DNA of 42,159 nt from Gammaproteobacteria bacterium (GTDB taxonomy: Bacteria > Pseudomonadota > Gammaproteobacteria > Steroidobacterales > Foliamicaceae), in assembly GCA_028821145.1 (NCBI GenBank), contig JAPPHC010000036.1, positions 1 through 42,159 on the forward strand, read 5' to 3'. This document shows positions 8,292 to 38,334 of this stretch, piece by piece. How positions within the stretch are numbered: position 1 is the stretch's first letter; each line of letters opens with the position of its first letter. The notes under the pieces were generated by a model that searched no databases, had not been told where the DNA came from, and was given only the letters and a program-made list of their open reading frames with translations. A program made the position numbers and the translations under genes.

Positions 8292-8335
8292 CCAACTCAA
8301 ACGCGAAGTCAGCGGGGGTGGCGGCGCCATTTCGC

Positions 8336-11300
8336 ATGAAAGACCGGATCATCGATTTATCGCTTGAACGCCGACGGTCCACGCTGCTGGCGATGATCGG
8401 CATCGTGATCTTCGGGATCGTCGCGCGCGTGTCGATCCCGGTCGAGAGCGAGCCCCGCATCGAAATTCCGTTCTACGTCATTACCGTCGTTCACGAGGGC
8501 ATCTCTCCGGAAGACGCCAGGCGGCTGCTGATCCTGCCGCTGGAAATCGAGCTCAAGGCCGTGGAAGGCGTCAGGGAAATTACCGGCACGGGCGCCGAGA
8601 ACATGGCCATGGTGGGGGTGGAGTTCACGACGGGAATCGACCTCGACGTGGCGCTGAGCGACGTGCGCGAGGCCGTGAACCGGGCCAAGCCCGAGTTCCC
8701 TTCCACTACGGAGGAGCCGATTGTCGAGGAAACCGCGACCACCGACTACCCCGTGCTGCAGATCAACCTGGTAGGACGGAATACCCCGGAGGAAACGCTC
8801 TACGCCACCGCGCGCCGGCTGCGCGACCGGATCGAAACGGTGGGCCAGGTGCAGCTGGCGGCGCTGCAGGGACACCGCGAGGAGTTCATGGAAATCCTCA
8901 TCCGGCCGGAGCAGCTCGCGACCTACCGGATGTCCGTGGAGGAGCTGTACGGGGCGCTGACGCGCAACAACCGGCTGATCGCGGCGGGCGCGATGGATTC
9001 CGCCCAGGGGAGCGTCTCGGTCAAGGTGCCCAGCGTCATCGAATCCACGGACGACCTGCTCGACATTCCGGTGCGCATCGAAGGCGACACGGTCGTGACC
9101 TTGAGCGACGTGGCCTCGGTGAGGCGCACGTTCAAGGACCGGGCCAGCTACTCCCACGCCAACGGCGAGCGTTCCATATCGGTGTTCGTGTACCGGCGTT
9201 CGGGCGCAAACAGCATCGAAACGGCCACCGCGGTCCGAGAAGTGGCGGACGGTTTCCGCGATCGGCTGCCCACGGGCGTCAACATGTTCTATTCCCAGGA
9301 CACGTCCCAGTTCGCCGCCAAGCAGATCGTCGAATTGCAGGGGAATATCGTGACCGCGCTGGTGCTGGTGATGCTGGTCATATTCCCGGCCATGGGCCTG
9401 AGGAGCAGCCTGCTCGTGGCCGGCGCCATCCCGGTTTCGTTCCTGTTCGCGCTGATCTTCCTGTGGCTGTTCGGGCACTCGTTCAACTTCATGGTCATGT
9501 TCGGCATGCTGCTGGGCCTGGGCATGCTGATCGACGGCGCCATCGTGGTCACCGAGGATGCCGAAAGGCGAATCACGGAAGGCGAAACCGAACTTGAGGC
9601 ATACGGGGCGGCCGCCAAGCGCATGTTCCTGCCCGTGCTGGCCTCCACCGCGACCACCCTGGCGGCCTTCGTGCCGCTGATGTTCTGGCCCGGCGTGGCC
9701 GGCGCCTTCATGGGATACCTGCCCATTACCCTGCTGTGGGTGCTGATCGGAGCGCTGCTCTACGCGTTGATATTCGCCCCGGTCCTGGGCACGACGTTCC
9801 GGCGCCGAAGCCTCGTATCCGCCGTGGCGGCGGCGGGCGCGGACAGCATGTGGGAACTGGACTGGTCGCGGCTGGGCCGTTTCGCGCGCGGCTACGGCCG
9901 CCTGCTTGCGCTGGCCGTGCGCCGTCCCCTGGTCACGGTCGCCATCGTGATCGCGCTGGTACTGGGCATATTCACGGTGCATGGCTCGCGCGACCTGGGC
10001 GTGCTTTTCTTCAACGAGAACGACCCCACCTACGCCCAGGTGTTCGTGCGCGCCCGCGGCAACCTGGACGTGGAGGAAGCCTACCGGCTGGTGGCCGAGG
10101 TGGAGGCAGCGGTCCTCGAGGTCCCGGGCATCAAGAACCTGAACATGTTCACCACGACCGGCGCGGGCCAGGCCCAGGGGCAGCGGATGCAATACCAGGG
10201 CGGCTCGACCGCGGACCGCATCGGCGCCATGTTCGTCGAGATGGTCGAGAGCAGCCAGCGCGACACGACCGGCATGGAAGTGCTGGAGGAAGTTCGGCGG
10301 CGCACGGAGAGGTTCGGCGGGGTGATCATCGAAGTGCGGCCGTTCGAGAGCCAGATCACCGCCGGCAAACCGATCGCCCTGCAGTTCTCCTCCAATGAGC
10401 GCGAGCGCCTTGTTCCCGTGGTCGAAAGGGTGCGCGAGTACATCGTCAACGAGGTCGAAGGACTGAGGGACATCGAGGACACGCTTCCTGTGCCCGGAAT
10501 CGAATGGCAACTGGAAGTGGACCGGGCCGTGGCGGGCCTGTACGGCGCCGACGTCTCGACCGTTGGACTGGCGACGCAGCTCGTGACGAACGGCGCCAAG
10601 CTGGGCGAATACCGCCCCGATGACGCGGACGATGCGCTGGACATCAGGATCCGCTACCCGACCGAAGACCGCGGCGTCAACGAACTCGACGACCTGAGGA
10701 TCGTCACCCGCAACGGGCCTGTGCCGTTGTCCAATTTCGTCACCCGGCGCGCGACGCCCCGGCTGGACACCATCCAGCGGGCCGACCAGGAGGACATCCA
10801 CATGATCCGGGCCGGCGTGGCGCCCGGCGTGCTGCCAGACGCCAAGATCCGGGAGATCCAGGCGTGGCTGGACAGCCAGACTTTCGATTCGGAGGTGGAT
10901 ATCCGCTTCCGCGGCACGACCGAGGAGCAGGAAGAGTCGATCGACTTTCTCTCCAAGGCCTTTTCCTTTGCGCTGCTGCTCATGTTCGCGTTGCTGGTCA
11001 CGCAGTTCAACAACATTTACCAGAGCTTCCTGATCATGCTGGCGATCGTGCTGTCCACGGCCGGAGTGTTTCTGGGGCTGGTCATCACCAACCAGCCGTT
11101 CAGCGCGATATTGAGCGGGGTGGGCGTGGTGTCGCTGGCGGGCATCGTCGTGAACAACAACATCGTGCTGATCGACACCTACAACGTGGGCCGCAGGGAA
11201 TTTCCCGACCGGGACATCGGCGAACTCATTGTGCTTACCGGCCTGCAGCGCCTGCGGCCGGTGCTTCTCACCACCGTCACCACCGTGATCGGACTGCTGC

Positions 11301-11575
11301 CGCTGGCCAGCCATCAATCGGTGGATTTCATCAACCGAAGGTGGGTCTCCGGAGGCGAGCTTTCGGGTTACTGGGTGCCTCTGGCCCAGGCCGTCGTGTC
11401 CGGACTGACCTTCGCCACGATCCTGACGCTGATCCTGACGCCGGCGCTGCTGGTGCTGCCGAGCCGGCTCAAGGGGATGTTCTCGGGTGTTCTGACGGGC
11501 CTGCGCAGCAGGGCGCCGAAGCCGGTCCGGCTTCGCGGCGGAGACAGTTACGCGGACCGCTCTCCCGGCGTATGA
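8336..11575 (+). CDS. RND-family efflux transporter, inner membrane permease
   Basis: A 1079-residue RND permease of HAE-1/AcrB type: N-terminal RRRSTLLAMI helix, first periplasmic loop (about 40-330), TM2-6, second large loop (about 550-860) and TM8-12. In TM4 the motif reads GMLIDGAIVVTED; AcrB has two aspartates there, so one proton-relay aspartate is replaced by glycine. TM10 reads GIVVNNNIVLID and lacks the AcrB lysine. Both changes are common in divergent RND branches. The membrane-fusion partner is two genes downstream at 13654, with the P450 fusion gene between. No outer-membrane factor is encoded here. A GTG at 8318 is an alternative start six codons earlier; neither has a strong ribosome site. 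The substrate is unknown. Confidence 0.93.
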   Translation: MKDRIIDLSLERRRSTLLAMIGIVIFGIVARVSIPVESEPRIEIPFYVITVVHEGISPEDARRLLILPLEIELKAVEGVREITGTGAENMAMVGVEFTTGIDLDVALSDVREAVNRAKPEFPSTTEEPIVEETATTDYPVLQINLVGRNTPEETLYATARRLRDRIETVGQVQLAALQGHREEFMEILIRPEQLATYRMSVEELYGALTRNNRLIAAGAMDSAQGSVSVKVPSVIESTDDLLDIPVRIEGDTVVTLSDVASVRRTFKDRASYSHANGERSISVFVYRRSGANSIETATAVREVADGFRDRLPTGVNMFYSQDTSQFAAKQIVELQGNIVTALVLVMLVIFPAMGLRSSLLVAGAIPVSFLFALIFLWLFGHSFNFMVMFGMLLGLGMLIDGAIVVTEDAERRITEGETELEAYGAAAKRMFLPVLASTATTLAAFVPLMFWPGVAGAFMGYLPITLLWVLIGALLYALIFAPVLGTTFRRRSLVSAVAAAGADSMWELDWSRLGRFARGYGRLLALAVRRPLVTVAIVIALVLGIFTVHGSRDLGVLFFNENDPTYAQVFVRARGNLDVEEAYRLVAEVEAAVLEVPGIKNLNMFTTTGAGQAQGQRMQYQGGSTADRIGAMFVEMVESSQRDTTGMEVLEEVRRRTERFGGVIIEVRPFESQITAGKPIALQFSSNERERLVPVVERVREYIVNEVEGLRDIEDTLPVPGIEWQLEVDRAVAGLYGADVSTVGLATQLVTNGAKLGEYRPDDADDALDIRIRYPTEDRGVNELDDLRIVTRNGPVPLSNFVTRRATPRLDTIQRADQEDIHMIRAGVAPGVLPDAKIREIQAWLDSQTFDSEVDIRFRGTTEEQEESIDFLSKAFSFALLLMFALLVTQFNNIYQSFLIMLAIVLSTAGVFLGLVITNQPFSAILSGVGVVSLAGIVVNNNIVLIDTYNVGRREFPDRDIGELIVLTGLQRLRPVLLTTVTTVIGLLPLASHQSVDFINRRWVSGGELSGYWVPLAQAVVSGLTFATILTLILTPALLVLPSRLKGMFSGVLTGLRSRAPKPVRLRGGDSYADRSPGV

Positions 11576-11620
11576 TTGACCCGTGTCTTATGGACAACTG
11601 ATTCGACTGCGGGGGTAGTT

Positions 11621-13618
11621 GTGAGATTGGCAGAAGAGTTGGCCCTGGTTCTTCTTAACGAAGACAGCGGCTATTTCGAGCCCGTCGGCGCCTGGAACCT
11701 GTCCTGCGTGATAGCGGGCTCGGTGCTCGCGGACCTGTCGCTCGAATTCCGCATCGACACCGATACGGAGACGCTTACGCTCCTGGACGCCAAGGAGACG
11801 GGCGACCCCCTGCTGGATCCGGTGCTGGAGGAAATCGCCTCGGCGCCCCCGCCGGTGCACAACGCCCAGTACTGGATCGAAAAGACCGCGCAGCGATCGG
11901 ACGACGCGATGGACATCATCCTCGACCGGCTGGTCGAGAAGAACATTCTGGACCACGATTCGGGTGGCTTCTGGTCGCTCAGCCGCCAGGTATCGCGCAC
12001 CGGAACGTACTCCGCGGACGACGGATCGACCAAACTGCAGGTCAAGACGCGCGTCCTTCGCGCCATCCTGGACGACGAGATACCCGATCCCCGGGATGTG
12101 ATCCTGATCAGCCTGATTGCCGCATGCGACGCCCTGCCGCTGTTGCTCACCGAAGAAGAGTACGAGGAATCGCGCGAGCGCATCGATCTGCTCTGCAAAA
12201 TGGACCTGGTGGGACGGGCCATCGGCGCGGCTGTAAGGGAGAGTCAGGGACGCCCGGTGCAGCAGCCCGTGGGGCGCACCCGGCCGATTCCGGTCGCCAA
12301 CCTGCTGAAGCTGATTCCGAATCGAAACCTGAGGCGGGGCAACCTTTCAAGGATCCTGACGGACCTGTACAGGGAATACGGTCCGGTTTTCAGGATCAAG
12401 AAGCCCTTCTCGGAAAAGGGCGTTGTCGTGCTTGCGGGCCCGGACACCAACGCATGGATCAACCGCAACGGCCGCACCTATTTCCGCACGCGGGACCACA
12501 TGGCCGACTTCGAGCAACTGTACGGTGCGTCGCGGACCTTGCCCGGCATGGACGGCACGGAGCATTACCGAATGAGAAAGTCCTTGCGCGCCGGTTATTC
12601 CCGCGCGACGCTGGAGGCGAGGCTGGACGAAGTATATAAATTCTGCCGTGCGTCACTGGAGAAATGGGTCCCGGGCAAACCGATGCCAGGCGCCGCCGCA
12701 TGCCAGGAGCTGATGAGCGTTCAGGTGTCGCAGCTCATGGTGGGCGTGGACGCGTCGGACCATATCGACGATCTCCTCAGCTACGAACACCGGTCGCTGG
12801 TCACGCATGTGCAGAAAGCCCTGCCGAAATTCATGATGCAGACGCCCGGCATGGCCAGGAAGAGGAAGCGCATTTTCGAGATGCTCAACCGGGTATTGAA
12901 TGCGCACACTCCGGCGCAGCGCAAAGGCAAACCCAAGGACCTGGTCGATCATATTCTGAGCCTGCACGCCAGCGATCCTCAGTATTTCCCGGAGACCGAT
13001 CTGAGCTTCATGCTGGTCGCAGGCTTCATCGCCAGCATTTACCTCGGCAGCGGGCTGAGCTTTGCGGTCTATGGAATGGCGAGCCATCCCGAAATCTACC
13101 GCCGGGTCCAGAAGGAAGCCGAGGCTTTGTTCGCCAACGGCGACCCGGGCAGGGACGATTTCAGGATGTCCGCAATCGACGCCGCCCACAGGGTGTTCCT
13201 GGAGTCTCAGCGCCTGTATCCGGTCATCCCCATGCAGCTTCGCACCACGATGAACCACTGCGTGGTGCAGGGCTTCAACATACCGAAGGACACACGCGTT
13301 GTGTTTGCGCACACCGCCGCACACCACCTGGAAGAGACTTTTCCCGATCCCGCAAGATTCGATATCGACCGCTACGCGCCGCCCAGGGAGGAACACAAGC
13401 GCGCGGGAGCATACGTGCCCTTCGGACTGGGGACGCACCATTGCCTGGGATCGAAATGGGTGGAACTGCAAATGACGATCAATCTGCTCCTCATCGCCTA
13501 CTATTTCGACATCAGCGTCGTTCCGAAGGACTATGAGATGGCATTCAATCCGTTTCCCACGAGCGCACCCAACAGCAAGTTTCGATTTACGATCACGAAA
13601 CGGCGCCACGACTTCTGA
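11621..13618 (+). CDS. Fusion of GPP34 (GOLPH3-like) domain and cytochrome P450
   Basis: One continuous 665-residue frame holds two domains. Residues 1 to about 205 match the GPP34/GOLPH3 fold: RLAEELALVLLNEDSGY at the start, then GDPLLDPVLEEI, YWIEK and DRLVEKNIL, and a helical end with LISLIAACDALPLLL. Residues about 225-665 are a P450: ExxR at Glu528-Arg531 (ESQR), and the haem loop FGLGTHHCLG with the ligand Cys608. The I-helix reads AGFIAS (about 467-472) where most P450s have an acid-alcohol pair, so oxygen activation may differ or the activity may not be a standard monooxygenation. GOLPH3 binds phosphoinositide at membranes; here the domain may dock the P450 on lipid. The start is GTG after a GGGGGT site; a TTG 15 codons earlier is possible. 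It lies between the RND permease (45 bases) and the fusion protein (35 bases). No ferredoxin or reductase gene is nearby. Confidence 0.88.
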   Translation: MRLAEELALVLLNEDSGYFEPVGAWNLSCVIAGSVLADLSLEFRIDTDTETLTLLDAKETGDPLLDPVLEEIASAPPPVHNAQYWIEKTAQRSDDAMDIILDRLVEKNILDHDSGGFWSLSRQVSRTGTYSADDGSTKLQVKTRVLRAILDDEIPDPRDVILISLIAACDALPLLLTEEEYEESRERIDLLCKMDLVGRAIGAAVRESQGRPVQQPVGRTRPIPVANLLKLIPNRNLRRGNLSRILTDLYREYGPVFRIKKPFSEKGVVVLAGPDTNAWINRNGRTYFRTRDHMADFEQLYGASRTLPGMDGTEHYRMRKSLRAGYSRATLEARLDEVYKFCRASLEKWVPGKPMPGAAACQELMSVQVSQLMVGVDASDHIDDLLSYEHRSLVTHVQKALPKFMMQTPGMARKRKRIFEMLNRVLNAHTPAQRKGKPKDLVDHILSLHASDPQYFPETDLSFMLVAGFIASIYLGSGLSFAVYGMASHPEIYRRVQKEAEALFANGDPGRDDFRMSAIDAAHRVFLESQRLYPVIPMQLRTTMNHCVVQGFNIPKDTRVVFAHTAAHHLEETFPDPARFDIDRYAPPREEHKRAGAYVPFGLGTHHCLGSKWVELQMTINLLLIAYYFDISVVPKDYEMAFNPFPTSAPNSKFRFTITKRRHDF

Positions 13619-13653: not shown

Positions 13654-14739
13654 ATGAAAATCAGGAACTCCCTGCGCAAGCCGTTATGGGCAGCGCTGGT
13701 CTTTGTGATTTGCGCCGTATGGCTGCTGTCCGGAATTCTGGGCGGCGGCGACGACGATGGGCAGGCGGCGGTCGCCTCGTCCGCCGAAGCGCAGGATGAC
13801 ATCGTGGTGCGGGTACGGACCAGCCGCGCGTCGGAGCAATCCAGGACGCTGACTCTTCGCGGCCGCACGCGAACCCGGCATGCGGTGACTGTGCGCGCCG
13901 AAACCTCCGGCCGGGTGGACGACCGGCCGATCGATATCGGGGCGCGGGTGTCGGCGGGCGACGTACTTTGCCAGGTGGAAGTCAATGACCGTGCGCTGCG
14001 CGTTCGCGAGGCCGGCGACGCGGTCGAGTTGGCGACGCTGGAGTACGAGGGAATGAAGACCTTGCGCGAACGCGGCCTGCAGCAGGAGATCGCGGTCGCC
14101 CGGGCCAAGGCCCAGTTGAGTTCAGCGCGCCGCCAGTTCCTGGCCAGCGAACTGGCTTTGAAGAACACGGCCGTGGTGGCGCCGTTCGCCGGCTTTGTGG
14201 AAGAGACGCATGCCGAGGTGGGCGACTACCTACAGATGGGCAGCCCCTGCGCCACCGTTCTCGATCTCGATCCCATCTACGTGGAGGCCGCCGTCACGGA
14301 GCAACAGTATCCGCAACTGGACCTGGGCGCCGAGGTGGAAATCACGATGGCGACCGGCGGCAGGGCCCGCGGATCTCTGACCTTTATCGGCAAACAGTCG
14401 GCGGACGAATCACGCACGTATCCCATCGAAGTGACGGTCCCCAATGCGGACTTTTCCATTTCCTCGGGGTTGAGCGCGGAAGTCGAAGTCTCCCTGCATG
14501 CCCAGCCGGCGCACAAGGTCGGGATGTCCTACGTGGTGCTGGACGCCAACGGAGAAATGGGCGTGCGCGCCGTTGACGATGATCAACGGGTTCTGTTCTA
14601 TCCGATCGACGTGGTGCGGGAAGACCCGGACGGGCTGTGGGTTTCCGGATTGCCGGCCGAAGTCACGCTGATTACGGTGGGCCAGGAATTCGTGAGTCCC
14701 GGGCAGCAGGTCAGGGTTCAGCGCGATACCACAGGCTAG
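13654..14739 (+). CDS. RND efflux periplasmic adaptor (membrane fusion protein)
   Basis: A 361-residue HlyD/AcrA-type adaptor. A single N-terminal membrane helix (about residues 12-28) is followed by a low-complexity linker, then a barrel-sandwich half (RTRHAVTVRAETSGRVDD, about 72-89), a short helical hairpin (about 115-165), the second lipoyl half (VVAPFAGFVEETHAEVGDY), and beta-barrel and membrane-proximal domains. It links an RND pump to an outer-membrane channel. GAGGAC lies before the ATG. The gene is read in the same direction as the RND permease at 8336 and is very likely its partner, although the P450 fusion gene separates them. The helical hairpin is short, which may mean direct contact with a particular outer-membrane factor; this is inference. 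Confidence 0.9.
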   Translation: MKIRNSLRKPLWAALVFVICAVWLLSGILGGGDDDGQAAVASSAEAQDDIVVRVRTSRASEQSRTLTLRGRTRTRHAVTVRAETSGRVDDRPIDIGARVSAGDVLCQVEVNDRALRVREAGDAVELATLEYEGMKTLRERGLQQEIAVARAKAQLSSARRQFLASELALKNTAVVAPFAGFVEETHAEVGDYLQMGSPCATVLDLDPIYVEAAVTEQQYPQLDLGAEVEITMATGGRARGSLTFIGKQSADESRTYPIEVTVPNADFSISSGLSAEVEVSLHAQPAHKVGMSYVVLDANGEMGVRAVDDDQRVLFYPIDVVREDPDGLWVSGLPAEVTLITVGQEFVSPGQQVRVQRDTTG

Positions 14740-14855: not shown

Positions 14856-15896
14856 TCAAGCAGTCCGCGCTGGTTTGCGCGCCAGAAAACAGTACAGCGG
14901 CGTGAAGATTCCGGTCTTGCCGCCGGCCACGTAAGCGTCCGCAGTCCGGTCCATGAGCCGGACCACGGTGGTGGAACCCTTCGGGAAGAGTCCAACCGCC
15001 TCCGTGAGCCTCAGCATGCCGATCATTGCCTTTCGACCCGCCGGCGTCCTCCGCAGGAGATTCCGGAAGGTCCCGGTTTCTCCCTCCATCGGCTGATACC
15101 AGGGCGTGTACGGATCTTCCTGCATCGCCCTGTCCATTCCCTCGACGACTTCGAAACCGGCCGCCTCCAGCGCCTGATCCACCTCCGCGAAGCTTGCGAT
15201 CTCATTCAACGCGATCCCGCGCATGAGTTCCTGCTTGATGTCCCGGTGGCGGGAGCTGTCGGGATCGAACTTGCTCGTCAGGCACATTTCCTGGCCCCAG
15301 AACAAGGCCCCGGGCTTCAACACGTGGAAGATCTCGGCAAAAGCGCCCTGCTTGTCCGGCGCGTGGCAGGTGGACTCGATCGCATAGCCCGCGTCGAAGG
15401 AGTCGGGCCCGAACCTGCTCATGTCCATGAAGCTGCAGTGGGCGTATTCCGCCATGTGATCAAGACCGGCCTCCACGTTCCTTCGCTTCGCCTTCTCCAG
15501 CTGCTGTTCGTTGTTGTTCAGGCAGACCACGCGGGCGCCGGACTCACGCGCGACCCGGCGCATCGGACCGCCCACTCCGCACCCCACGTCGATGACCGTC
15601 ATCCCCTCCTTGAGCCGGAGCTTGCCGATCATGAGCCGCTGATGCCGGAGGATCGAGTCGTCAAGGCTTTCGCCCGGCCTCAATGGGGCGAAGTGCAGCG
15701 ATTCGTTCCACCCGAACTGCATGAACTCGCTGCACAGCGAGTAGTAGTCATTGACCGTCTCGGCATGGTCATAACCACGGTCTTCGGCGTCGCCGCCTTC
15801 CCGCCTGTCGAGCCAGCCTTCAAACGACTCGACGCGGCTGGCGACGGACCAGCCCCTGTAGGCGTTCCTCAGTGACGTGGGCAGTTTCGCCGGCAT
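14856..15896 (-). CDS. Sterol 24-C-methyltransferase homologue (Erg6/SMT-like)
   Basis: A 346-residue SAM-dependent methyltransferase. The SMT hallmarks are in order: region I as FGWNESLHFAP (residues 61-71), the SAM motif IDVGCGVGGPMR (102-113), LNNNEQQ, and region III as YAIESTCHAP (171-180), then FDPDSSRHRDIK. Length equals that of typical SMTs. In eukaryotes these enzymes add a methyl group to C-24 of the sterol side chain; bacterial homologues are rare. The preceding gene on the same strand is a DAF-36/KshA-like Rieske oxygenase, 45 bases away, so both may act on one sterol-like substrate. No squalene epoxidase or oxidosqualene cyclase is in the window, so the substrate may be imported or made elsewhere. 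A methyltransferase for another isoprenoid is the main alternative. Confidence 0.85.
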   Translation of the reverse strand: MPAKLPTSLRNAYRGWSVASRVESFEGWLDRREGGDAEDRGYDHAETVNDYYSLCSEFMQFGWNESLHFAPLRPGESLDDSILRHQRLMIGKLRLKEGMTVIDVGCGVGGPMRRVARESGARVVCLNNNEQQLEKAKRRNVEAGLDHMAEYAHCSFMDMSRFGPDSFDAGYAIESTCHAPDKQGAFAEIFHVLKPGALFWGQEMCLTSKFDPDSSRHRDIKQELMRGIALNEIASFAEVDQALEAAGFEVVEGMDRAMQEDPYTPWYQPMEGETGTFRNLLRRTPAGRKAMIGMLRLTEAVGLFPKGSTTVVRLMDRTADAYVAGGKTGIFTPLYCFLARKPARTA

Positions 15897-15941: not shown

Positions 15942-17021
15942 TCAGGCGCCCAGCCTGGCGCCACGCGCGGCATGAATCGGGGCGGGCTTGAGGCTGCGCA
16001 CACGCGCGCGGCTCTCTTCGGCGTCCGGATAGAACTGCTCGCAGTATTTCCGGTAAGTCATGATCTCGCCGTCCGAGCGGCTCAGGATGGGCAGCGGCTG
16101 GTAGCGCTTGTTCTCCCAGATGGCCACGTCCTGGCGCACGTCGTGCTTGACCCGCGATACGAAGAACCGGGTCAGCCAGTTCGCGGGAAGACACCGAAGC
16201 AGCAATGTCGCCAGCCATTTCTGCCCGGGTTCCCAACGCCTGATCTGCAGGGCGACCACGAGCTTGATGTGCGTATCGTCAATGGGCGTGGAAAGGATCC
16301 ACTGGCGCAGTTTCAGCCCGCTTACGCGCTCATGAAACTCGACGAACGAATAGCCGAGACCCCACACATGGGTTGTCGCGGCAACATCGGTAAGAACCGG
16401 CAGGCCAAGCAGCTTAACGTTGCGCCTGAAAACAAACCGGTTGCGCAGGTAGGCGCCGTCCACCTGCACGTCTCCGACCTGCTTCACCGCCGCGTAGCCA
16501 TGCACGTAGCGGAAATGGGCGATATCCACGGAGTTTTCCGCGGTTTCCTGCGGGTGGCCGCGCAGCCGTACGCTCCCGTAGTGGAGGCGGTGCCATTCCC
16601 TGTCCGGCCACTCGGGGAGCTCCCACTGCGGTTCTCGTCCCACCGGGCTCCACCAGGCTAGAACGAGGCCGTTGACTTCGCGTGTTTCATACACGTTCAG
16701 CCGCGCGGTTCTTGGCGGCGGCGCATTCGGCGTGGCCACGCACCGGCCGGTGACGTCGTATTCGAAGCCGTGGAACGGGCAGACCAGCCGCCCGTTTCTG
16801 ACGCAACCGCCGCCGTCCGGACCCAGGTGCCCGCCGAGATGCGGGCAGTACGCCTCGGAGACGCAAATCTCTCCGTCGGCATCGCGCCAGGCCACGATCT
16901 GCCGGCCCATCCATTCCTTCTGGAGCAGACCGCCCTTCGGCAGGTTCCGGGCGATCTCCACGAGATACCAGCCTTCCGGGTACCTGCCCGGCGGGTAATA
17001 CCGTTTATTCGCCAGTTCCAT
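15942..17021 (-). CDS. Rieske non-haem iron oxygenase, DAF-36/KshA-like
   Basis: A 359-residue oxygenase. The Rieske cluster ligands are CPH (Cys59, His61) and CPFH (Cys81, His84). The mononuclear iron site follows as ENSVDIAHFRYVH, with Asp166, His169 and His174. The line NGLVLAWW and the ENSVD/AHF/VHG context resemble cholesterol 7-desaturase (DAF-36/Neverland) and 3-ketosteroid 9-alpha-hydroxylase (KshA) more than the three tandem Rieske enzymes at 30-33 kb. It probably hydroxylates or desaturates a steroid-like ring, needing an external reductase not encoded here. It is the first gene of a probable pair with the methyltransferase. The C-terminus is basic and of no known role. A general aromatic-ring oxygenase is the alternative. 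Confidence 0.85.
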   Translation of the reverse strand: MELANKRYYPPGRYPEGWYLVEIARNLPKGGLLQKEWMGRQIVAWRDADGEICVSEAYCPHLGGHLGPDGGGCVRNGRLVCPFHGFEYDVTGRCVATPNAPPPRTARLNVYETREVNGLVLAWWSPVGREPQWELPEWPDREWHRLHYGSVRLRGHPQETAENSVDIAHFRYVHGYAAVKQVGDVQVDGAYLRNRFVFRRNVKLLGLPVLTDVAATTHVWGLGYSFVEFHERVSGLKLRQWILSTPIDDTHIKLVVALQIRRWEPGQKWLATLLLRCLPANWLTRFFVSRVKHDVRQDVAIWENKRYQPLPILSRSDGEIMTYRKYCEQFYPDAEESRARVRSLKPAPIHAARGARLGA

Positions 17022-17193: not shown

Positions 17194-19641
17194 TTAGAAG
17201 CTGTAGCTCAAGCTCACGCCGACCTGGCGGCCACGGGGCAGGGAAATGGCGAAGCCGCGCGGCGTAGTGCTCGCACTGCGGGTCTCTCCCGAATAGCCCG
17301 GCAAGGCAGCGCTGGGGGCCAGCGAACCGGCGCTCCGGTCGATATACCGCAGGATGTCCAGCGGTGCATCGTCATCGAACAGATTCTTGCCCCAAAGCGT
17401 GATTTCGAGCGCATCCCGCCGCACGCCCAGGCGCAGACCCACGCGGGTCATTGCTCCGGTCTCAATCAGGTTGTGGATCTGGGAAAAGCGCGAGCCCTCA
17501 TAGACGACGTCGCCCACCCAGAACCATGAAAAACCGGACGCCATCGTGTCGCCGTCGTAGCGGGCGACCAGCGAAGCCATATGCTCCGGAATCCGCGGCA
17601 CCTGCTTGCCTGCGGCGGAACCCAGGCGAGCGAGATCGGCCAGGGACCCGCTGGCGCCCAGCAGTTCGGCCTGATCAATGTTGATGTATTCCTTGATTTC
17701 CGCATTGGTCCAGGCATAGCCGAGGTTGAGCGTCAGTTTGTCGCTGACGAGTGCCTGCATTTCGACCTCAAGGCCGTTGATTTCCGATTCACCGACGTTG
17801 TCGATGATCGAGGTGGTCGTGCCCCTGCCCGTTTCGATCACTGTCGTGAATTGCTGATCGGTCACTTCGGTTCGATAGGCGGCGACATTCAATGCCAGGC
17901 GCCCGTCCATCAGGCGGGCCTTGTAGCCGGCTTCGAAATTCCACGCCACTTCCTCTTCAACGGACCGGAAGGACTCGTCGGGATTGCCGGAGGCGTCCAG
18001 CGGAACGTCCGCATTGAAATTGCCCGGCTTGGATCCCTTGGAGATGTTCAGATAGAGATTCGTTGCGTCGTCGGGTTTGTAGCTGAGGGTGAAACGAGGA
18101 TTCACGGAGGTAAAGTCGACGCCGTAGTCGCCGGTCATCATGGTTCTTTCGTCCGACGAAAAGACCTGCACGGAAATGTCGTCCTTTGCCCACCGGGCTT
18201 CGGCCGTTCCCGACCACTTCTCGTTGAAATCCATCTCCACGGCGGCGAATACGGCCGTGTTGTCAACTGTCTCATCGGACACGGGACCGTTGGGGAAAAC
18301 ATCAAGCGGCGTCATGCCCCACTTCGCGGCCGAGAACGGAATGACCTTACGGTCCGTGTGCTCGTCCTTGGTGCCCTGATAGTAGTAGAGCCCGACAACA
18401 GCTCGAAACGCCCGATCGGAGGGCGAGGACAGCCTGAGTTCCTGCGAGAAGTCGGTCTGATCATATCCGCCGTAGCGCGTAAACAGACCGCAAAGCGAAC
18501 GGCATATCCCGGCCCCGATGAAACGAGGCAGGAACGGCGGCAAAGCGTCCGCGATAGCGGTCCCGAAATCGTAACCGCCATAGGTCGCGTCAAAATTGCT
18601 GTCGTTCTCGTCGTCGATACTTCCCGTCAGACTGGATACACGCCAGCCGTTGGCCAGGTCGTAGTGCATGGACAGCGAGGCCGAGATTCGGTCGTTGAAG
18701 TTCCCTGCTCCGGCCACCGCATCGATTTCTTCGGTGAGCAGCGCCACCGGCAGGTTGCGTTGCGCTTCGCCCTTGTAGTACTCGCGGGCGCGCGGTCCCG
18801 TTGCGCCTGAAATATCGGGGCTCCCGCTGACGGGTCCCCGGAAGCAGCAATTGTTGTGCTCCCGGCCCTGCAAGGCCATGGCGAAATGGTCGTCTTCGAC
18901 TTTCTGATAACCGACCGAAAGAGTGGCTTCAAAGTCTTCGTTCGGCGTGAAATAGAGCTTGGCGGATACGTTTGTGGTCTCCTGCCCGCCCACTTCGTCT
19001 CCGGTAAGCGTATTGACATGCTCGCCGCCGTACTGGTTGTAGCCCGCCGAAATGCGGAAATAGGCCTTGCCTTCCGACAAGGGGCCGCTGAGCCATCCGT
19101 TGACGTCATAGGTTTCGTGTTGCGCCCCGGTCACCGAGACTTCACCTGCTAGCTCTTCCGTCGGACGCCGGGTGACGTAATTGATCGCGCCGGCGTAGGT
19201 GCCGCGGCCATACTGAGCGGACTGCGGTCCCTTGATGATCTCCACGCGTTCCACGTTCGCCAGATCGACCGACGACACCAGGCCACCGATATAGATGCCG
19301 TCAACGAAAGTCGATACCGCCTTGACGCCGGCGATGCCGTTCAGGATGGTTGTCTGGCCGCGAACGGCAGGACGGTCGAGTGACGGTTGCCGCCCGAAGC
19401 CGGACTGGAACGAGAACCCGGGCGTATACAGCGCAATATCGTCAACCGATCTAAGGCCCAGTTCGCGGATGTCGTCGGCCGTGAAGGCGCTGACCGCGAT
19501 CGGGATGTCCTGCACGGACTCCTCGCGCTTGCGGGCGGTGACGATGATCTCTTCCAGCGCGCCCTCCTGTGCGATCACGGGACGCGGGGCAACGATCACG
19601 CCCGCAGCGAGTACGGAAAAAACGGCAAGTCTGAATCTCAT
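17194..19641 (-). CDS. TonB-dependent outer membrane receptor (copy 1)
   Basis: An 815-residue receptor: signal peptide (residues 1-24, to VIAQ), a TonB-box-like EEIIVTARK, plug domain (about 40-165, with VERVEIIKGPQSAQYGRG) and a 22-strand-type barrel ending in the aromatic SLSYSF. It imports a ligand across the outer membrane using TonB energy; ligands of this subfamily are mostly unknown and need not be siderophores. It is a close paralogue of the next receptor upstream, and the 54 bases before the two starts also match at 47 positions, so the duplicated unit included the leader. Promoter, ribosome site (AGGGAGG) and start are thus well fixed. The Rieske and methyltransferase genes follow on the same strand after 172 bp. 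Confidence 0.93.
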   Translation of the reverse strand: MRFRLAVFSVLAAGVIVAPRPVIAQEGALEEIIVTARKREESVQDIPIAVSAFTADDIRELGLRSVDDIALYTPGFSFQSGFGRQPSLDRPAVRGQTTILNGIAGVKAVSTFVDGIYIGGLVSSVDLANVERVEIIKGPQSAQYGRGTYAGAINYVTRRPTEELAGEVSVTGAQHETYDVNGWLSGPLSEGKAYFRISAGYNQYGGEHVNTLTGDEVGGQETTNVSAKLYFTPNEDFEATLSVGYQKVEDDHFAMALQGREHNNCCFRGPVSGSPDISGATGPRAREYYKGEAQRNLPVALLTEEIDAVAGAGNFNDRISASLSMHYDLANGWRVSSLTGSIDDENDSNFDATYGGYDFGTAIADALPPFLPRFIGAGICRSLCGLFTRYGGYDQTDFSQELRLSSPSDRAFRAVVGLYYYQGTKDEHTDRKVIPFSAAKWGMTPLDVFPNGPVSDETVDNTAVFAAVEMDFNEKWSGTAEARWAKDDISVQVFSSDERTMMTGDYGVDFTSVNPRFTLSYKPDDATNLYLNISKGSKPGNFNADVPLDASGNPDESFRSVEEEVAWNFEAGYKARLMDGRLALNVAAYRTEVTDQQFTTVIETGRGTTTSIIDNVGESEINGLEVEMQALVSDKLTLNLGYAWTNAEIKEYINIDQAELLGASGSLADLARLGSAAGKQVPRIPEHMASLVARYDGDTMASGFSWFWVGDVVYEGSRFSQIHNLIETGAMTRVGLRLGVRRDALEITLWGKNLFDDDAPLDILRYIDRSAGSLAPSAALPGYSGETRSASTTPRGFAISLPRGRQVGVSLSYSF

Positions 19642-19703: not shown

Positions 19704-22166
19704 CTAGAAGCCGTATGTGAGGGTTACGCCTATCTGCCTGCCGCGGGGCAGCGAAATGGCGAAACCGCGCGGCGTGCTGGACGGATTACCCAATTGGCCT
19801 GGCACAAATCCGGGGATTCTCGCGTGGCTGGGCAGGCCGCCGGTGCGCCGGTCGATGTAGCGCAGCGTGTCGAGCGGCGCGTCGTCGTCGAACAGGTTTC
19901 TGGCCCACAGCACCACTTCCAGCGCGTCGCGGCGCGCGCCCACGCGCAAACCCACCCGGGTCATGGCGCCCGTTTCGATCAGGTTATGCACCTGGCTGAA
20001 CCGCGAGCCTTCGTACACGACGTCGCCCACGAGGAACCAGGAAAAGCCCGAAGCCATCTCGGCGCCTTCGTAGCGGGCCACCACGGATGCCGAGTGCTCG
20101 GGGATCCGCGGTACCTGCTTGCCGGCTACCGAGCCCAGACGATTCAGGTCCTGCAAGGAACCGTTGGCGCCCAGCAGGTCGGCCTGGTCAACATTGGTCC
20201 ACTTCGCGATCTCCGCATTGGTCCAGGCGTAACCGGCGTTCACCGTAAGCGAGTCGGTCAGCAGCGTCTCGACTTCCACTTCCAGTCCGTTGATCTCGGT
20301 TTCGCCGACGTTGTCGATCAGCGAGGCGCTGCCGCCCGTGGCCGTCTCGATCACGGTCGTGAACTGCTGGTCGGTCACCTCGGTGCGGTAGGCCGCCACG
20401 TTGAGCGTCATGCGGCCATCCAGCAACCGGCCCTTGTAGCCCGCCTCGTAGTTCCAGGCGACTTCCTCGTCCACGGCGCGGAACGATTCGTCCGGCTGGC
20501 CGTCGGGCCCGATGGGCACCTGGGCATTGAAATCGCCCGGCTTGGAGCCCTTGGAGATGTTGAGGTAGAGGTTGGTGTTGTCGTCCGGACGGTAGCTCAG
20601 CGTGACCCGGGGATTGATGGAGTCGAATTTTTCCGTGTGCTCGCTGTTGAGCAGGTTGATGTCGCGAGTGTTGTAGATGCGAACGGTAATGTCGTCCTGC
20701 GCCCAGCGGGCCTCCAGGGTTGCCGCCCACTGATCGTTGATGTCCCATTCCAGGCCGCCGAACACCGCCGTGTTGGTCACGTCGTCGTTATCGAAGGTGG
20801 AATTGGGCAGGACCGTGCCGGCCACCAGGCCATAGCCGAGCGATTCCGACTGTTTGCTCAGTACCTTGGAGTCCATGTCTTCGTGCTTCTTGCCCTTGTA
20901 GTAGTACAAGCCCAGCGTGGCCCTCAGGGGCCTGTCCGCCGGCGAGGACAGCCGCAGCTCCTGGGAGAAGTCGGTCTGTTCGCCGCCGAGCATGCGCTGG
21001 AAGTTTCCGCAGAAGCCGATGGTCACGCAGAAAAGCCGGCCCAGGCTGGGACGCAGAAACGGCGGATAACCATTCACCCAGGCGACGCCGAAGTCGTAGC
21101 CGCCGTACGTGCCGTCAATGAAGCTCTCGGTTTCGTCGGAGATGCTCCCGGTCAGGCTGGACAGCCGCCAGTCGTTGTTCATGTCGTAGTGCATGGTCAG
21201 GGAAGCCGAAAAACGCTCCAGGCGATTGCCCGCTCCGCCGACCGAGTCCAGGCCTTCGGTCAGTAGCGCCACCGGCAGGTTGCGCTGCGCCTCGCCGATG
21301 TAGTACTCGCGGGCCCGGGGACCGGTCACGCCGCTAATGTCCGGACTGCCCGACGGCGGCCCGCGGAAGCAGCAATTGTTGTGTTCGCGGCCCTGCAGCG
21401 CGAGGGCGGGGTGGCCATCGTCCGTTTCCTGATAGCCCAGCGCCAGGGTGGCCTCGAAGTTCTCGCTGGGCGTCAGAAACAGCTTGGCCGCCACGTTCAT
21501 CGTTTCCTGGTCGCCGATCTCTTCGTTCGTTACCGTGTTGACGTATTCACCGCCGTACTGACGATAGCTGGCGGAAACGCGGAAATAGGCCCGGTCGGCG
21601 ACCAGCGGGCCGCTTGCCCAGGCGCTCAGGTCGTACGACTCGTGTTCGGCGGCGCCCAGGGAAACCTCGCCGGCAAACTCGTCGGTCGGGCGCCTGGTGA
21701 CATAGTTGATGGCGCCGGCGTAGGTGCCCCGGCCGTACTGCGCCGACTGCGGTCCCTTGATGATTTCGACGCGCTCGATGTTGGCCAGGTCGACCGACGA
21801 CACCAGCCCTCCTACGTACACGCCATCCACGAAGGTGGAAACGGCCTTTACGTTGGCGATGCCGTTCACGATGGTGGTCTGGCCGCGCACGGCGGGGCGA
21901 TCGATACCGGCGTTGCGGCCGAAGCCGGATTGGAAGGAAAAGCCCGGCGTATAGAGCGCGATGTCATCCACGCTCAAGAGGCCCAGTTCGCGGATGTCGT
22001 CCGCGGTGAAGGCGCTGACCGCGATCGGGATGTCCTGAACGGACTCCTCGCGCTTGCGGGCGGTCACGATGATTTCCTCAAGCATGGCTTCCTGCGTAAC
22101 CGCAGGGCGCGGGGCGACGATCACGCCCGCAGCCAGGACGCAAATAACGGCAAGTCTGAATCTCAT
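19704..22166 (-). CDS. TonB-dependent outer membrane receptor (copy 2)
   Basis: An 820-residue paralogue of the receptor at 17194-19641, with the same signal peptide, EEIIVTARK box, plug and barrel; it ends in LTYGF. Plug regions are almost identical in protein sequence, while parts of the barrel and loops (for example about residues 330-430) differ, which is what one expects if the two receptors take up related but not identical ligands. A longer frame would add 23 residues before the signal peptide; the AGGGAGGA site before 22166 sets the start. It lies 76 bases downstream of the histidine kinase gene on the same strand. Both receptors may be controlled by that two-component system, which is inference from position. 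Confidence 0.93.
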   Translation of the reverse strand: MRFRLAVICVLAAGVIVAPRPAVTQEAMLEEIIVTARKREESVQDIPIAVSAFTADDIRELGLLSVDDIALYTPGFSFQSGFGRNAGIDRPAVRGQTTIVNGIANVKAVSTFVDGVYVGGLVSSVDLANIERVEIIKGPQSAQYGRGTYAGAINYVTRRPTDEFAGEVSLGAAEHESYDLSAWASGPLVADRAYFRVSASYRQYGGEYVNTVTNEEIGDQETMNVAAKLFLTPSENFEATLALGYQETDDGHPALALQGREHNNCCFRGPPSGSPDISGVTGPRAREYYIGEAQRNLPVALLTEGLDSVGGAGNRLERFSASLTMHYDMNNDWRLSSLTGSISDETESFIDGTYGGYDFGVAWVNGYPPFLRPSLGRLFCVTIGFCGNFQRMLGGEQTDFSQELRLSSPADRPLRATLGLYYYKGKKHEDMDSKVLSKQSESLGYGLVAGTVLPNSTFDNDDVTNTAVFGGLEWDINDQWAATLEARWAQDDITVRIYNTRDINLLNSEHTEKFDSINPRVTLSYRPDDNTNLYLNISKGSKPGDFNAQVPIGPDGQPDESFRAVDEEVAWNYEAGYKGRLLDGRMTLNVAAYRTEVTDQQFTTVIETATGGSASLIDNVGETEINGLEVEVETLLTDSLTVNAGYAWTNAEIAKWTNVDQADLLGANGSLQDLNRLGSVAGKQVPRIPEHSASVVARYEGAEMASGFSWFLVGDVVYEGSRFSQVHNLIETGAMTRVGLRVGARRDALEVVLWARNLFDDDAPLDTLRYIDRRTGGLPSHARIPGFVPGQLGNPSSTPRGFAISLPRGRQIGVTLTYGF

Positions 22167-22208
22167 TGGATGTCCTCCCTGTCGGTAAAGCAGGCCGACA
22201 GCCGGCCA

Positions 22209-22236
22209 ATTATGCACAAGTGGGCGGCGATGCAAA
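22209..22236 (-). promoter_or_regulatory. Candidate promoter of receptor copy 2
   Basis: On the minus strand, TTTGCA (22231-22236) and CATAAT (22209-22214) are 16 bp apart and lie in the 76-bp gap between the kinase stop and the receptor start. The -10 part is conserved at copy 1. This suggests the receptor can be transcribed separately from the kinase. Confidence 0.4.
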
Positions 22237-29978: not shown

Positions 29979-31124
29979 ATGTTCATCAACTTCTGGTATC
30001 CGGCGGTCGAGTCGGAGAAACTCGAGGACAAGCCGCTCAAACAACGCATGCTGGGTCAGGATTTCGTGCTGTGGCGCGACGAGGAAGGTCAGGCCCATTG
30101 CCTCAGCAATACCTGCTGCCACCGTGGCGGCTCGCTTGGCGACGGAGTGGTGGAAGACAGTTGCGTGCAATGTCCGTACCACGGCTGGCGATTCAACGGC
30201 GACGGGCAGTGCGTGCGCGTGCCGTCCATCGGCATGAAGGCCAAGCCGCCCGGGCGGGCGCGGGTGGACTCCTATCCGGTCATGGAGCGCTACGGCCTGG
30301 TTTTCTGCTTCCTCGGCGACCTCGACGAATCGGAACGGCCGCCACTGCTCGAGATCAAGGAGTGGGGCCAGGAAGGCTGGTCGTCCACCATCCAGTCATT
30401 CGAATGGAACTTCAACTACAAGCGATCAATCGAAAACGGCATCGACCCGGCCCATAACGAGTTCGTGCATCCCACCCATGGCATGAGGGGCATGGACGAG
30501 AACTACAAGGTACGCGAGCTGGACATGCGCGAGACCGACTGGGGCACGGGCTTCTTCAACAAGGTCTATGCGCCGCCTCTGGCCGAAAAGAAGATGCGCG
30601 AGGCGTCCGGCGAAACAAAGAACCGCACGATCAGGGTCGGCACCGGCCATCACGGGCCGGCCTCCGTGTGGACCTTCATCAATCCCACTCCGGTCATGCA
30701 CATCTACCAGTATCTTTACGAATCGCCGATCGACGAGGACAACACGCGGCTGTTCCTGGTCAACATGCGCAACTTCATGCTGGAAGACATCTATGACGAT
30801 ACCATGATGGAGCGGAACCAGTACGTGGCGACCCAGGACCGGGACGTGCTGTACGAACTCCACCCGAAGATCACACCGCGGGTCAATACCAAGGAACTGT
30901 TTACCCCCTCGGACTATCCGATCGGGCGCTACCGGGAATGGCTGAAGGAATGGGAAGCGCGCGGCTGGCGCATCGATCTGGACAAGGTTCGCGAGCAGGA
31001 ACGCCATACGGCGTTCGCCATACCGAGCCCGGAACGGCGCAAGAAGAAGGGCTGGGTGATCGATCCCATCCCGCTGATGCCGGCGACGCCGGCGCGGGCG
31101 GTGGAGACCGACCAGGCCGCCTGA
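29979..31124 (+). CDS. Rieske oxygenase alpha subunit, tandem copy 1
   Basis: A 381-residue Rieske non-haem iron oxygenase. Rieske ligands: Cys46 and His48 in CCHRGG, Cys65 and His68 in CPYH. Iron site: Asp156, His159 and His164 in GIDPAHNEFVH. Length and layout fit the alpha subunits of vanillate-demethylase/phenoxybenzoate-type enzymes that work with a separate reductase, which is not in the window. AGGAG lies before the ATG; copies 2 and 3 lack such a site and depend on coupling. The unit repeats every 1149 bp. From base 30876 to its end and on into copy 2 the DNA is identical to the copy 2/copy 3 junction. Substrate unknown; ring hydroxylation or O-demethylation is likely. Confidence 0.92.
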   Translation: MFINFWYPAVESEKLEDKPLKQRMLGQDFVLWRDEEGQAHCLSNTCCHRGGSLGDGVVEDSCVQCPYHGWRFNGDGQCVRVPSIGMKAKPPGRARVDSYPVMERYGLVFCFLGDLDESERPPLLEIKEWGQEGWSSTIQSFEWNFNYKRSIENGIDPAHNEFVHPTHGMRGMDENYKVRELDMRETDWGTGFFNKVYAPPLAEKKMREASGETKNRTIRVGTGHHGPASVWTFINPTPVMHIYQYLYESPIDEDNTRLFLVNMRNFMLEDIYDDTMMERNQYVATQDRDVLYELHPKITPRVNTKELFTPSDYPIGRYREWLKEWEARGWRIDLDKVREQERHTAFAIPSPERRKKKGWVIDPIPLMPATPARAVETDQAA

Positions 31125-31339
31125 TCCATGTTCATCAACTTCTGGTATCCCGCGGTCGAGTCCGGGAAGCTGGAAGGAGCGCCGCTGAAGAGGCGCATGC
31201 TCGGCCAGGACTTCGTGCTGTGGCGCGACGAGGACGGCCAGGCCCATTGCCTGAGTAACACCTGCTGCCACCGCGGCGGTTCGCTTGGCGATGGCGTCGT
31301 GGAAGACAGTTGCGTGCAATGTCCGTACCACGGCTGGCG
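30876..31339 (+). repeat. 464-bp perfect direct repeat, first occurrence
   Basis: This tract covers the 3' end of Rieske copy 1, the 3-base spacer and the first 212 bases of copy 2. It is identical, base for base by eye, to 32025-32488. The offset of 1149 bp equals the tandem unit. Flanking parts of the genes differ clearly, so the identity is recent. Confidence 0.9.
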
Positions 31340-32273
31340 TTTCAACGGCGAGGGCCAGTGCGTGCGGGTGCCTTCCATCGGCATGAAGGCCAAGCCGCCC
31401 GGGCGGGCGCGAGTGGATTCCTATCCGGTCACGGAACGCTACGGCCTGGTTTTCTGTTTCCTCGGCGACCTCGACGAGTCCGAACGCCCGCCGATCCTTG
31501 AAATTCCCGAATGGGGACAAGAAGGCTGGTCGTCCACTATCCAGTCATTCGAATGGAACATCGACTACAAGCGCTCAATCGAGAACGGCCTCGACCCGGC
31601 GCATAACGAGTTCGTGCATCCCACCCATGGCATGAAGGGTCTGGACGAAAACTACCGTGTCCGGGAGTTGGACATTCGCGAGACCGACTGGGGCACGGGA
31701 TTCTTCAACGAGGTCTTCGCGCCGCCCCTGGCCGAAAAGAAGATGCACGAGGCATCCGGGCGGAACAAGGCTCATACCATCAACGTGGGTGCCGGCCATC
31801 ACGGACCAGCGTCCAAGTGGACCAACATCAATCCCACTCCGGTCATGCATATCTACCAGTACCTCTTCGAATGTCCGATCGACGAGGACAACACATGGAT
31901 TATCCTGATTAACATGCGCAACTTCATGCTGGAAGACATCTACGACGAAACCATGATGGAGCGGAACCAGTACGTGGCGACTCAGGACCGGGACATCCTC
32001 CTGAATCTGCATCCGAGGATCACGCCGCGGGTCAATACCAAGGAACTGTTTACCCCCTCGGACTATCCGATCGGGCGCTACCGGGAATGGCTGAAGGAAT
32101 GGGAAGCGCGCGGCTGGCGCATCGATCTGGACAAGGTTCGCGAGCAGGAACGCCATACGGCGTTCGCCATACCGAGCCCGGAACGGCGCAAGAAGAAGGG
32201 CTGGGTGATCGATCCCATCCCGCTGATGCCGGCGACGCCGGCGCGGGCGGTGGAGACCGACCAGGCCGCCTGA
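31128..32273 (+). CDS. Rieske oxygenase alpha subunit, tandem copy 2
   Basis: 381 residues, with the same Rieske (Cys46, His48, Cys65, His68) and iron (DPAHNEFVH) sites as copy 1. It starts 3 bases after the stop of copy 1 with no own ribosome site, so its translation is coupled. Its first 70 residues are nearly identical to copy 3 and its last 80 are identical to copy 1, while the middle (about 200-300: NKAHTINVGAGHHGPASKWTN...) is its own. Cysteine appears in FECPIDEDNTWI, unlike the neighbours. Catalytic residues are intact, so it is probably active, perhaps on a slightly different substrate or as part of a mixed oligomer. Confidence 0.92.
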   Translation: MFINFWYPAVESGKLEGAPLKRRMLGQDFVLWRDEDGQAHCLSNTCCHRGGSLGDGVVEDSCVQCPYHGWRFNGEGQCVRVPSIGMKAKPPGRARVDSYPVTERYGLVFCFLGDLDESERPPILEIPEWGQEGWSSTIQSFEWNIDYKRSIENGLDPAHNEFVHPTHGMKGLDENYRVRELDIRETDWGTGFFNEVFAPPLAEKKMHEASGRNKAHTINVGAGHHGPASKWTNINPTPVMHIYQYLFECPIDEDNTWIILINMRNFMLEDIYDETMMERNQYVATQDRDILLNLHPRITPRVNTKELFTPSDYPIGRYREWLKEWEARGWRIDLDKVREQERHTAFAIPSPERRKKKGWVIDPIPLMPATPARAVETDQAA

Positions 32274-32488
32274 TCCATGTTCATCAACTTCTGGTATCCC
32301 GCGGTCGAGTCCGGGAAGCTGGAAGGAGCGCCGCTGAAGAGGCGCATGCTCGGCCAGGACTTCGTGCTGTGGCGCGACGAGGACGGCCAGGCCCATTGCC
32401 TGAGTAACACCTGCTGCCACCGCGGCGGTTCGCTTGGCGATGGCGTCGTGGAAGACAGTTGCGTGCAATGTCCGTACCACGGCTGGCG
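32025..32488 (+). repeat. 464-bp perfect direct repeat, second occurrence
   Basis: Covers the 3' end of Rieske copy 2, the spacer and the first 212 bases of copy 3; identical to 30876-31339. The first mismatches outside are at 32024 (G against A at 30875) and 32489 (G against T at 31340). Confidence 0.9.
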
Positions 32489-37361: not shown

Positions 37362-37365
37362 CGCG

Positions 37366-38292: not shown

Positions 38293-38334
38293 GCCGCGCA
38301 TTCTAGCGCGACCGACCAACGACTCCATCCGCCT

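Follow-up and report, generated by a model that had tools for sequence, protein, structure and literature searches.

A GPP34-cytochrome P450 fusion of bacteria apparently resident in marine sponges: a probable sterol-modifying enzyme

A gene joining an N-terminal GPP34 (GOLPH3-like) domain to a cytochrome P450 was analysed in a contig of 42,159 nucleotides from a gammaproteobacterium (JAPPHC010000036.1; hereafter, the whole stretch is called the window). Judged from sequence comparison and gene context, its product is probably a sterol-modifying enzyme that has not been studied before. The reading that we prefer, with a probability of about 0.58, is a sterol-tailoring P450 that would be docked by its GPP34 domain and coupled to methylation by a sterol C-24-methyltransferase (SMT), to a KshA-type Rieske oxygenase and to export by an RND system. 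Features of the window are as follows.

8318..11575, + strand: RND (AcrB/AcrD/AcrF) pump (PF00873, 500.9 bits), ending 45 bp before the fusion
11621..13618, + strand: GPP34-P450 fusion gene, 665 aa, GTG start
11627..12241, + strand: GPP34 (GOLPH3-like) domain (PF05719, 119.7 bits in its own genome)
12284..13609, + strand: cytochrome P450 domain (PF00067; family profile A4)
13007..13066, + strand: I-helix region, residues 463-482, FMLVAGFIASIYLGSGLSFA, Tyr474 invariant, acid-threonine pair missing
13202..13213, + strand: ExxR motif (E528-R531), from the 80-row alignment
13421..13450, + strand: haem-binding loop FGLGTHHCLG (Cys608), from the sequence and the 80-row alignment
13654..14739, + strand: HlyD-type membrane-fusion protein (PF16576/PF13437), starting 35 bp past the fusion
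14856..15896, - strand: SMT homologue (PF08498 Sterol_MT_C, 68.2 bits, cut-off 21.7)
15942..17021, - strand: Rieske oxygenase with KshA_C domain (PF19298, 95.2 bits; PF00355, 68 bits)
17194..19641, - strand: TonB-dependent receptor, candidate member of the system
19704..22235, - strand: TonB-dependent receptor, candidate member of the system
29979..33422, + strand: three tandem 381-aa Rieske oxygenases, 76-90% identical in protein

That both domains lie in one frame, as an earlier note on this DNA had claimed, was borne out by Pfam searches. A longer open reading frame (11576-13618, + strand) runs from a TTG over 680 aa without interruption, and on its numbering GPP34 was matched at residues 18-222 (116.7 bits, E 1.9e-33, profile positions 1-200 of 201, cut-off 29.1 bits) and p450 at residues 249-653 (143.9 bits, E 8.4e-42, cut-off 22.8), both far above their cut-offs. 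The start at 11621, taken from the same note, is backed by relatives of the same genus, which begin with GTG or ATG at the corresponding position. The fused frame was present in eight of the nine genomes of the genus, its own included, the exception being G006, and all 79 loci listed from a wider scan (see below) align from residue 1-17 to residue 658-665 of the 665-residue query. Following a multi-phylum P450 search, frames of at least 666 aa were found open at 47 of 47 matches above 600 bits; the order-level search, which shares some genomes with it, gave such frames at 14 of 15, the remaining match (G027:C38:48340-49548) stopping about 130 bases short of its contig end. An assembly join, the possibility raised in the note, and a frame error were ruled out by these open frames and by the full-length fusion in 79 of 79 listed loci. 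Host DNA is an unlikely source: the neighbours are bacterial, the gene occurs in many bacterial bins, and the GPP34 half is just 21-22% identical to GOLPH3 by structural alignment.

The full-length fusion was modelled by AlphaFold2 with a mean pLDDT of 86.8 and a pTM of 0.80. Hydropathy over 19 residues peaked at 2.0 (residues 159-178) and at 1.8 (in the I-helix); values above 1.6 often serve to flag membrane helices. Because both stretches were modelled as helices within the two folded domains, no separate membrane anchor was seen.

The GPP34 half modelled alone (pLDDT 91.7, pTM 0.88) gave seven Foldseek matches in the PDB at E≤0.001, every one GOLPH3 or Vps74, including 9qpq_B (E 6e-8, TM 0.71/0.64), 3kn1 and Vps74 itself. 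A profile built from 46 GPP34 domains (39 from P450 fusions and 7 others) likewise picked human GOLPH3 and yeast Vps74 out of the PDB sequences (3kn1, E 1.6e-20). Fold and profile are thus common to the fusion and GOLPH3/Vps74 (PF05719) over about 200 residues. Unlike these proteins, the fusion's domain lacks the PI4P-binding arginines, is acidic, is joined to an enzyme and has no Golgi. The arginines, which we take to be residues 90, 171 and 174 of GOLPH3, are aligned with A32, D94 and M97 (alignments read by hand). All 80 family members have a net acidic GPP34 domain (median -18), and the P450 half is mostly basic (median +13). F117 and W118, presumably near the position aligned with the GOLPH3 hairpin, are conserved in at least 90% of the 46 domains.

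In another family of the order (f11), GPP34 was also found heading MFS transporters in seven of the eight scanned frames longer than 400 aa (L009, L027, L030, L031, L032, L036 and L037; exception, L028). A plain anchor would be idle on proteins already in the membrane, so that recruitment to membrane proteins or to particular zones of the membrane would be no less likely than binding to lipid. Three tandem GPP34 genes were observed at G018:C1:183624-188450, and one of their frames (L017) ends early where an MFS part seems to start. A second GPP34 protein occurs in the window's own genome (L001:1486-2658) and two relatives (L015, L016); to the eye, its C-terminal part resembles a membrane-spanning region, and a Pfam scan of L001 returned nothing beyond GPP34.

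The ExxR motif and haem loop of the P450 half, both recognised in the earlier note, are intact, with E528, R531 and Cys608 conserved at 1.00 in 80 alignment rows. The half scored 724 bits against family profile A4, which includes the window sequence. The predicted structure was nearest to CYP120A1 in Foldseek, with fatty-acid P450s also among the nearest folds and CYP51 and CYP46A1 in the best 50. The best NCBIfam matches, all far below cut-off, were ApyO, pentalenene oxygenase and albaflavenone monooxygenase/synthase. The window proteins and neighbour-cluster representatives that were scanned included no ferredoxin or reductase.

Fusions of this family (type 1) read ASIY-LGSG in the I-helix, versus GLDT or GQHT in relatives, and the type-1 stretch is one residue shorter. 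Tyr474 was at 1.00 in 80 type-1 rows and is followed by threonine in some of them. By hand count, it takes the acid's place from the upstream side and the threonine's place from the downstream side, so that the pair is gone either way. An acid-threonine pair is usual, not universal, in the I-helix of P450s; its loss would tip the balance somewhat from plain hydroxylation towards desaturation, ring closure or another non-standard oxidation.

A second tier of P450 matches (299-433 bits) comprised type-2 fusions and unfused P450s of about 464-493 aa. Type-2 fusions L187-L191, in which GPP34 was identified by sequence and tree, retain threonine after an acid or a histidine in the I-helix; among the unfused P450s, L192-L194, as read, retain GLDT. 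The one type-2 fusion scanned with Pfam, the truncated L029, gave 139 bits for GPP34 and 26 bits for p450. In the trees of the two domains, built from 23 and 21 chosen rows, type 1 always formed a single clade, and GPP34 domains of both types clustered together with a support of 95. The simplest reading of these trees would be one old fusion, in which case L192-L194 would be either unfused relatives or cases of loss.

The fusion was also considered as the CYP51 of a sterol cluster. With CYP51 and CYP120A1 it has the P450 fold, the core motifs and a sterol gene context in common. Unlike CYP51, however, it reaches just 82 bits to the nearest CYP51 in the PDB, versus 356 bits to Methylococcus CYP51 for the CYP51 beside the cyclase; the genus has its own separate CYP51, and the AGQHTS-type I-helix is replaced. 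This identity was therefore ruled out.

The gene setting, made up of RND pump, membrane-fusion protein, SMT and Rieske oxygenase, had been overlooked in the earlier note. Pump, fusion and membrane-fusion protein share one strand, and SMT and Rieske genes lie on the other, 45 bp apart. In the PDB, the window SMT was closest to MitM (71 bits), a 24-sterol methyltransferase fragment reaching just 27 bits, and its NCBIfam matches were all far under cut-off. The best PDB match of the KshA-type Rieske protein was a 3-ketosteroid 9alpha-hydroxylase (105 bits). For the first tandem Rieske gene, the only copy scanned, the best NCBIfam match was a distant one to SdmA (92.6 bits, cut-off 600); placing the trio in the same system as the fusion is a guess. 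The window HlyD-type protein and its relatives formed their own cluster, F10 (six loci), separate from the commoner adaptor cluster F4, and TolC was not recognised among the genes of the window. Three adjoining FGE-sulfatase (formylglycine-generating-enzyme-like) genes were observed at 36444-39339 on the - strand.

Neighbours in the listed loci were called greedily as genes and counted after single-linkage clustering by BLAST, with unequal flanks and some short contigs, and were named from one annotated representative per cluster (for TonB, from the window and another locus set). So counted, genes near the fusion in the 79 loci, among them L119 and L120, for which the gene call gave no core gene, encoded RND pumps (53), Rieske oxygenases (42), TolC (34), adaptor F4 (33) and SMTs (30), and more rarely an FAD oxidoreductase of amine-oxidase fold (19), MMPL proteins with a sterol-sensing match (8) and TonB-dependent receptors (7). 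None of the counted partners was found in 4 of 79. The pattern GW..S.HF, which we take to be the sterol-binding region of SMTs, was present in 29 of the 32 SMT-cluster members.

Further proteins with both domains were obtained from a scan of genome contigs over genomes of 84,980 species. Of 122 confirmed stretches, 80 were kept, corresponding to the 79 listed loci, all full length and 43-98% identical. Within the order, the fusion was found in 14 of 396 genomes; in 369 sampled genomes of the class, matches above 600 bits were confined to its own genome and one other. The listed loci carry the NCBI labels of ten phyla: Pseudomonadota (35), Acidobacteriota (23), Rhodothermota (5), Actinomycetota (4), Nitrospinota (3) and, with one locus each, Nitrospirota, Chloroflexota, Gemmatimonadota, Bacteroidota and Latescibacterota; four loci have none. 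A quick tree required six changes for Pseudomonadota and six for Acidobacteriota, forced by starred branches. From these sequences, horizontal transfer is likely, beside possible paralogy or mis-binned contigs. A plasmid search returned 407 records with some match, none covering 80% of the fusion query, and the eight plasmid matches listed touch the P450 part only.

Bin names that we link, in part presumptively, to sponge studies were found in 61 of the 79 listed loci (jk18x/p16x, 27; SB06xx, 16; COS/RHO/APA/CAR, 18); in the other 18, 'sponge' appeared in one title (L083). The SB06xx bins are presumably from Ircinia ramosa, and for p16x we infer an Ircinia origin as well. The name jk18x is used in the consulted part of a study of Caribbean Ircinia (PMC9531527), and Coscinoderma, Rhopaloeides, Carteriospongia and Aplysina aerophoba are among the hosts in that of PMC8163846. 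COS, RHO and CAR would fit the first three of these hosts; APA fits Aplysina aerophoba less well. Carriers of the fusion thus appear to live in marine sponges.

In two genomes, the fusion lies less than 8 kb from a sterol cluster with a fused squalene epoxidase-oxidosqualene cyclase, CYP51, an SdmA-like protein and SMT. In a gammaproteobacterial bin (L199), 13.5 kb hold, in this order, the fusion, SMT, a hydrolase, an SDR (3Beta_HSD/Epimerase), SdmA-like, CYP51, epoxidase-cyclase and SMT; the SDR, of SdmB type by Pfam only, is 2.4 kb from the fusion. The order in L200 is SMT, epoxidase-cyclase, CYP51, ERG24 (241 bits, over its cut-off), SdmA-like, SdmB-like, a reverse-transcriptase fragment, the fusion and a second SMT. 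The SdmA-like proteins (412 bits in L199, 381 in L200) and the SdmB-like protein of L200 (306 bits) have these as their best NCBIfam matches, yet under the cut-off of 600. CYP51 is 1.4 kb from the fusion in L196, and in L201 a type-2 fusion lies about 0.5 kb from an epoxidase-cyclase with an interrupted frame. Other cyclase-bearing genomes examined had cyclase and fusion on separate contigs or hundreds of kb apart, and in the window itself SMT and Rieske are the only sterol-type genes adjoining the fusion. The epoxidase part of the fused protein was seen in L126:49-3411, L195, L197, L199 and L200. Strong cyclase frames measured 1120-1340 aa in the 10 of the order and exceeded 1100 aa in 19 of 20 across phyla; L202 is an exception, with separate epoxidase and cyclase genes.

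Co-occurrence was assessed at a high cyclase bit threshold because weak matches also turned up in 2 of 14 control genomes. Within the order, a cyclase above 700 bits was found in 9 of the 14 fusion genomes versus 1 of the 382 without it (10 of 396 overall; Fisher p 3e-14 with kinship ignored, the genomes belonging to three genera of two families). Across phyla, 50 of the 79 loci were hand-picked to drop near-duplicates, and 41 of these 50 genomes were used in the multi-phylum P450 search. Cyclases above 650 bits were present in 20 of the 50, the other 30 having a weaker match or none; among the latter, G410 carries a truncated cyclase piece at a contig end. Therefore, same-cell sterol would not be the sole substrate, unless many of the metagenome-assembled genomes are incomplete, and imported sterols or another substrate have to be assumed for the 30.

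Sterol is proposed as the likely substrate because of the recurring sterol-type gene partners; the earlier note had offered a lipid or sterol as a possibility, and SMT, KshA-type Rieske and the clusters in L199 and L200 lend weight to the latter. In the preferred scheme, the N-terminal GPP34 domain would dock the P450 at the inner membrane face or at a membrane partner, doing the job of the transmembrane anchor in microsomal P450s. The SMT would alkylate the sterol side chain in one small pathway with the fusion and the KshA-type Rieske oxygenase, and the RND system, with its pump and adaptor genes on either side of the fusion, would export the product. Cyclase-bearing genomes would tailor their own sterols, and cyclase-less genomes would probably tailor those of the sponge or of neighbouring symbionts. 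Substrate, docking, export and use of host sterols are thus what we infer. The scheme is weakened because the window SMT is closer to MitM, the SdmA and SdmB scores are under cut-off, a strong cyclase is absent from 30 of 50 genomes, and a reverse-transcriptase fragment lies in the cluster of L200. Also against it count the distance between cyclase and fusion in the other cyclase-bearing genomes, the few genera behind the order-level co-occurrence, the absence of a redox partner from the scanned proteins and of a recognised TolC gene from the window and, for the docking step, the missing PI4P arginines, the acidic domain and the joining of GPP34 to integral MFS proteins.

An alternative is a P450 whose substrate is some other isoprenoid or lipid (hopanoid, carotenoid or fatty acid), the sterol genes nearby marking general lipid islands of these bacteria. 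The fold near CYP120A1, a retinoic acid enzyme, and near fatty-acid P450s speaks for it, as do the remote NCBIfam matches, the missing strong cyclases and a type-2 fusion adjoining a cyclase-like gene of just 217 bits. The recurrence of an SMT family whose C-terminal domain is of sterol-methyltransferase type, together with a KshA-type Rieske, and the physical linkage to sterol clusters, nevertheless make it rather unlikely. Less probable still is a P450 that would detoxify or modify a metabolite of the sponge, with RND pump, TolC and adaptor as its classic efflux system. Frequent RND genes are in keeping with this, and so is their closeness (median distance of 58 RND genes from the fusion, about 190 bp), but such a system has no need for an SMT or a steroid-type Rieske, and one or both were found in 56 of the 79 listed loci.

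A different question is what the GPP34 half does. Rather than a lipid binder, it could be a protein-interaction module recruiting the enzyme to membrane proteins, a tentative reading of somewhat under even odds that fits any substrate. GOLPH3 binds enzyme tails. The missing PI4P arginines, the acidic domain set beside a mostly basic P450 half and the fusions to MFS transporters are consistent with such a module; the conservation of F117 and W118 near the hairpin position argues against it. GOLPH3 also binds COPI, according to the title of PDB entry 9qpq. A bolder and quite doubtful extension of the preferred sterol-tailoring scheme would make GPP34 a bacterial address tag that collects enzymes and transporters (P450, MFS and other membrane proteins) in certain membranes; sponge symbionts of many phyla would have exchanged a GPP34-addressed factory making and exporting unusual, possibly 24-alkylated sponge sterols. 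If true, a P450 with altered oxygen chemistry, an SMT, a Rieske oxygenase and an RND exporter would work together on compounds whose fossils count as the oldest animal traces.

The pairing, for which the earlier note knew of no described enzyme, was not found in titles and abstract starts of the listed papers on GPP34 or GOLPH3 with P450, bacteria or sponge sterols; matches for GPP34 with P450 or bacteria mostly concerned a Bt toxin named Gpp34. The note's view that bacterial GPP34 proteins are of unknown use was nearly right, save for SCO4440 of Streptomyces coelicolor, a bacterial GPP34 protein like that of the fusion, which the consulted part of PMC12402492 links to peptidoglycan and wall-deficient cells, giving it a cell-wall phenotype; no P450 is described there. 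According to the portions consulted, Ircinia symbionts from ten phyla carry sterol clusters (Kelly et al. 2022, PMC9531527), and 24-isopropyl side chains are made by three SMTs of sponge symbionts (Brown et al. 2023, PMC10070321). The clusters as described in these portions have CYP51, ERG24, cyclase and SMT in many phyla and, unlike the fusion genomes, no second P450. The words 'GPP34', 'GOLPH3' and 'Golgi' are absent from both main texts, as are 'RND' from that of PMC9531527 and 'transporter' from that of PMC10070321. A conserved, undescribed enzyme thereby joins the debate on the makers of unusual sponge sterols (24-isopropyl and others, used as animal biomarkers): a P450 linked to SMT and exporter genes in bacteria labelled as ten phyla. 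Bacterial GPP34, almost unstudied, gains a testable function, and a P450 family without the oxygen-activation pair, having close relatives with it, allows sequence, chemistry and docking to be compared directly.

Minor observations concern gene copies around the fusion. In one gammaproteobacterial group (L090, L091, L093, L096 and L097), two unannotated gene families, with products of about 600 and 306 aa, are present in repeated copies upstream of it; L096 has just one gene of the second. Paired copies of the fusion were seen in L063/L198, with an FAD oxidoreductase gene between the copies in L198, and G436:C60, in the genome of L105, holds two adjoining P450 matches above 660 bits.
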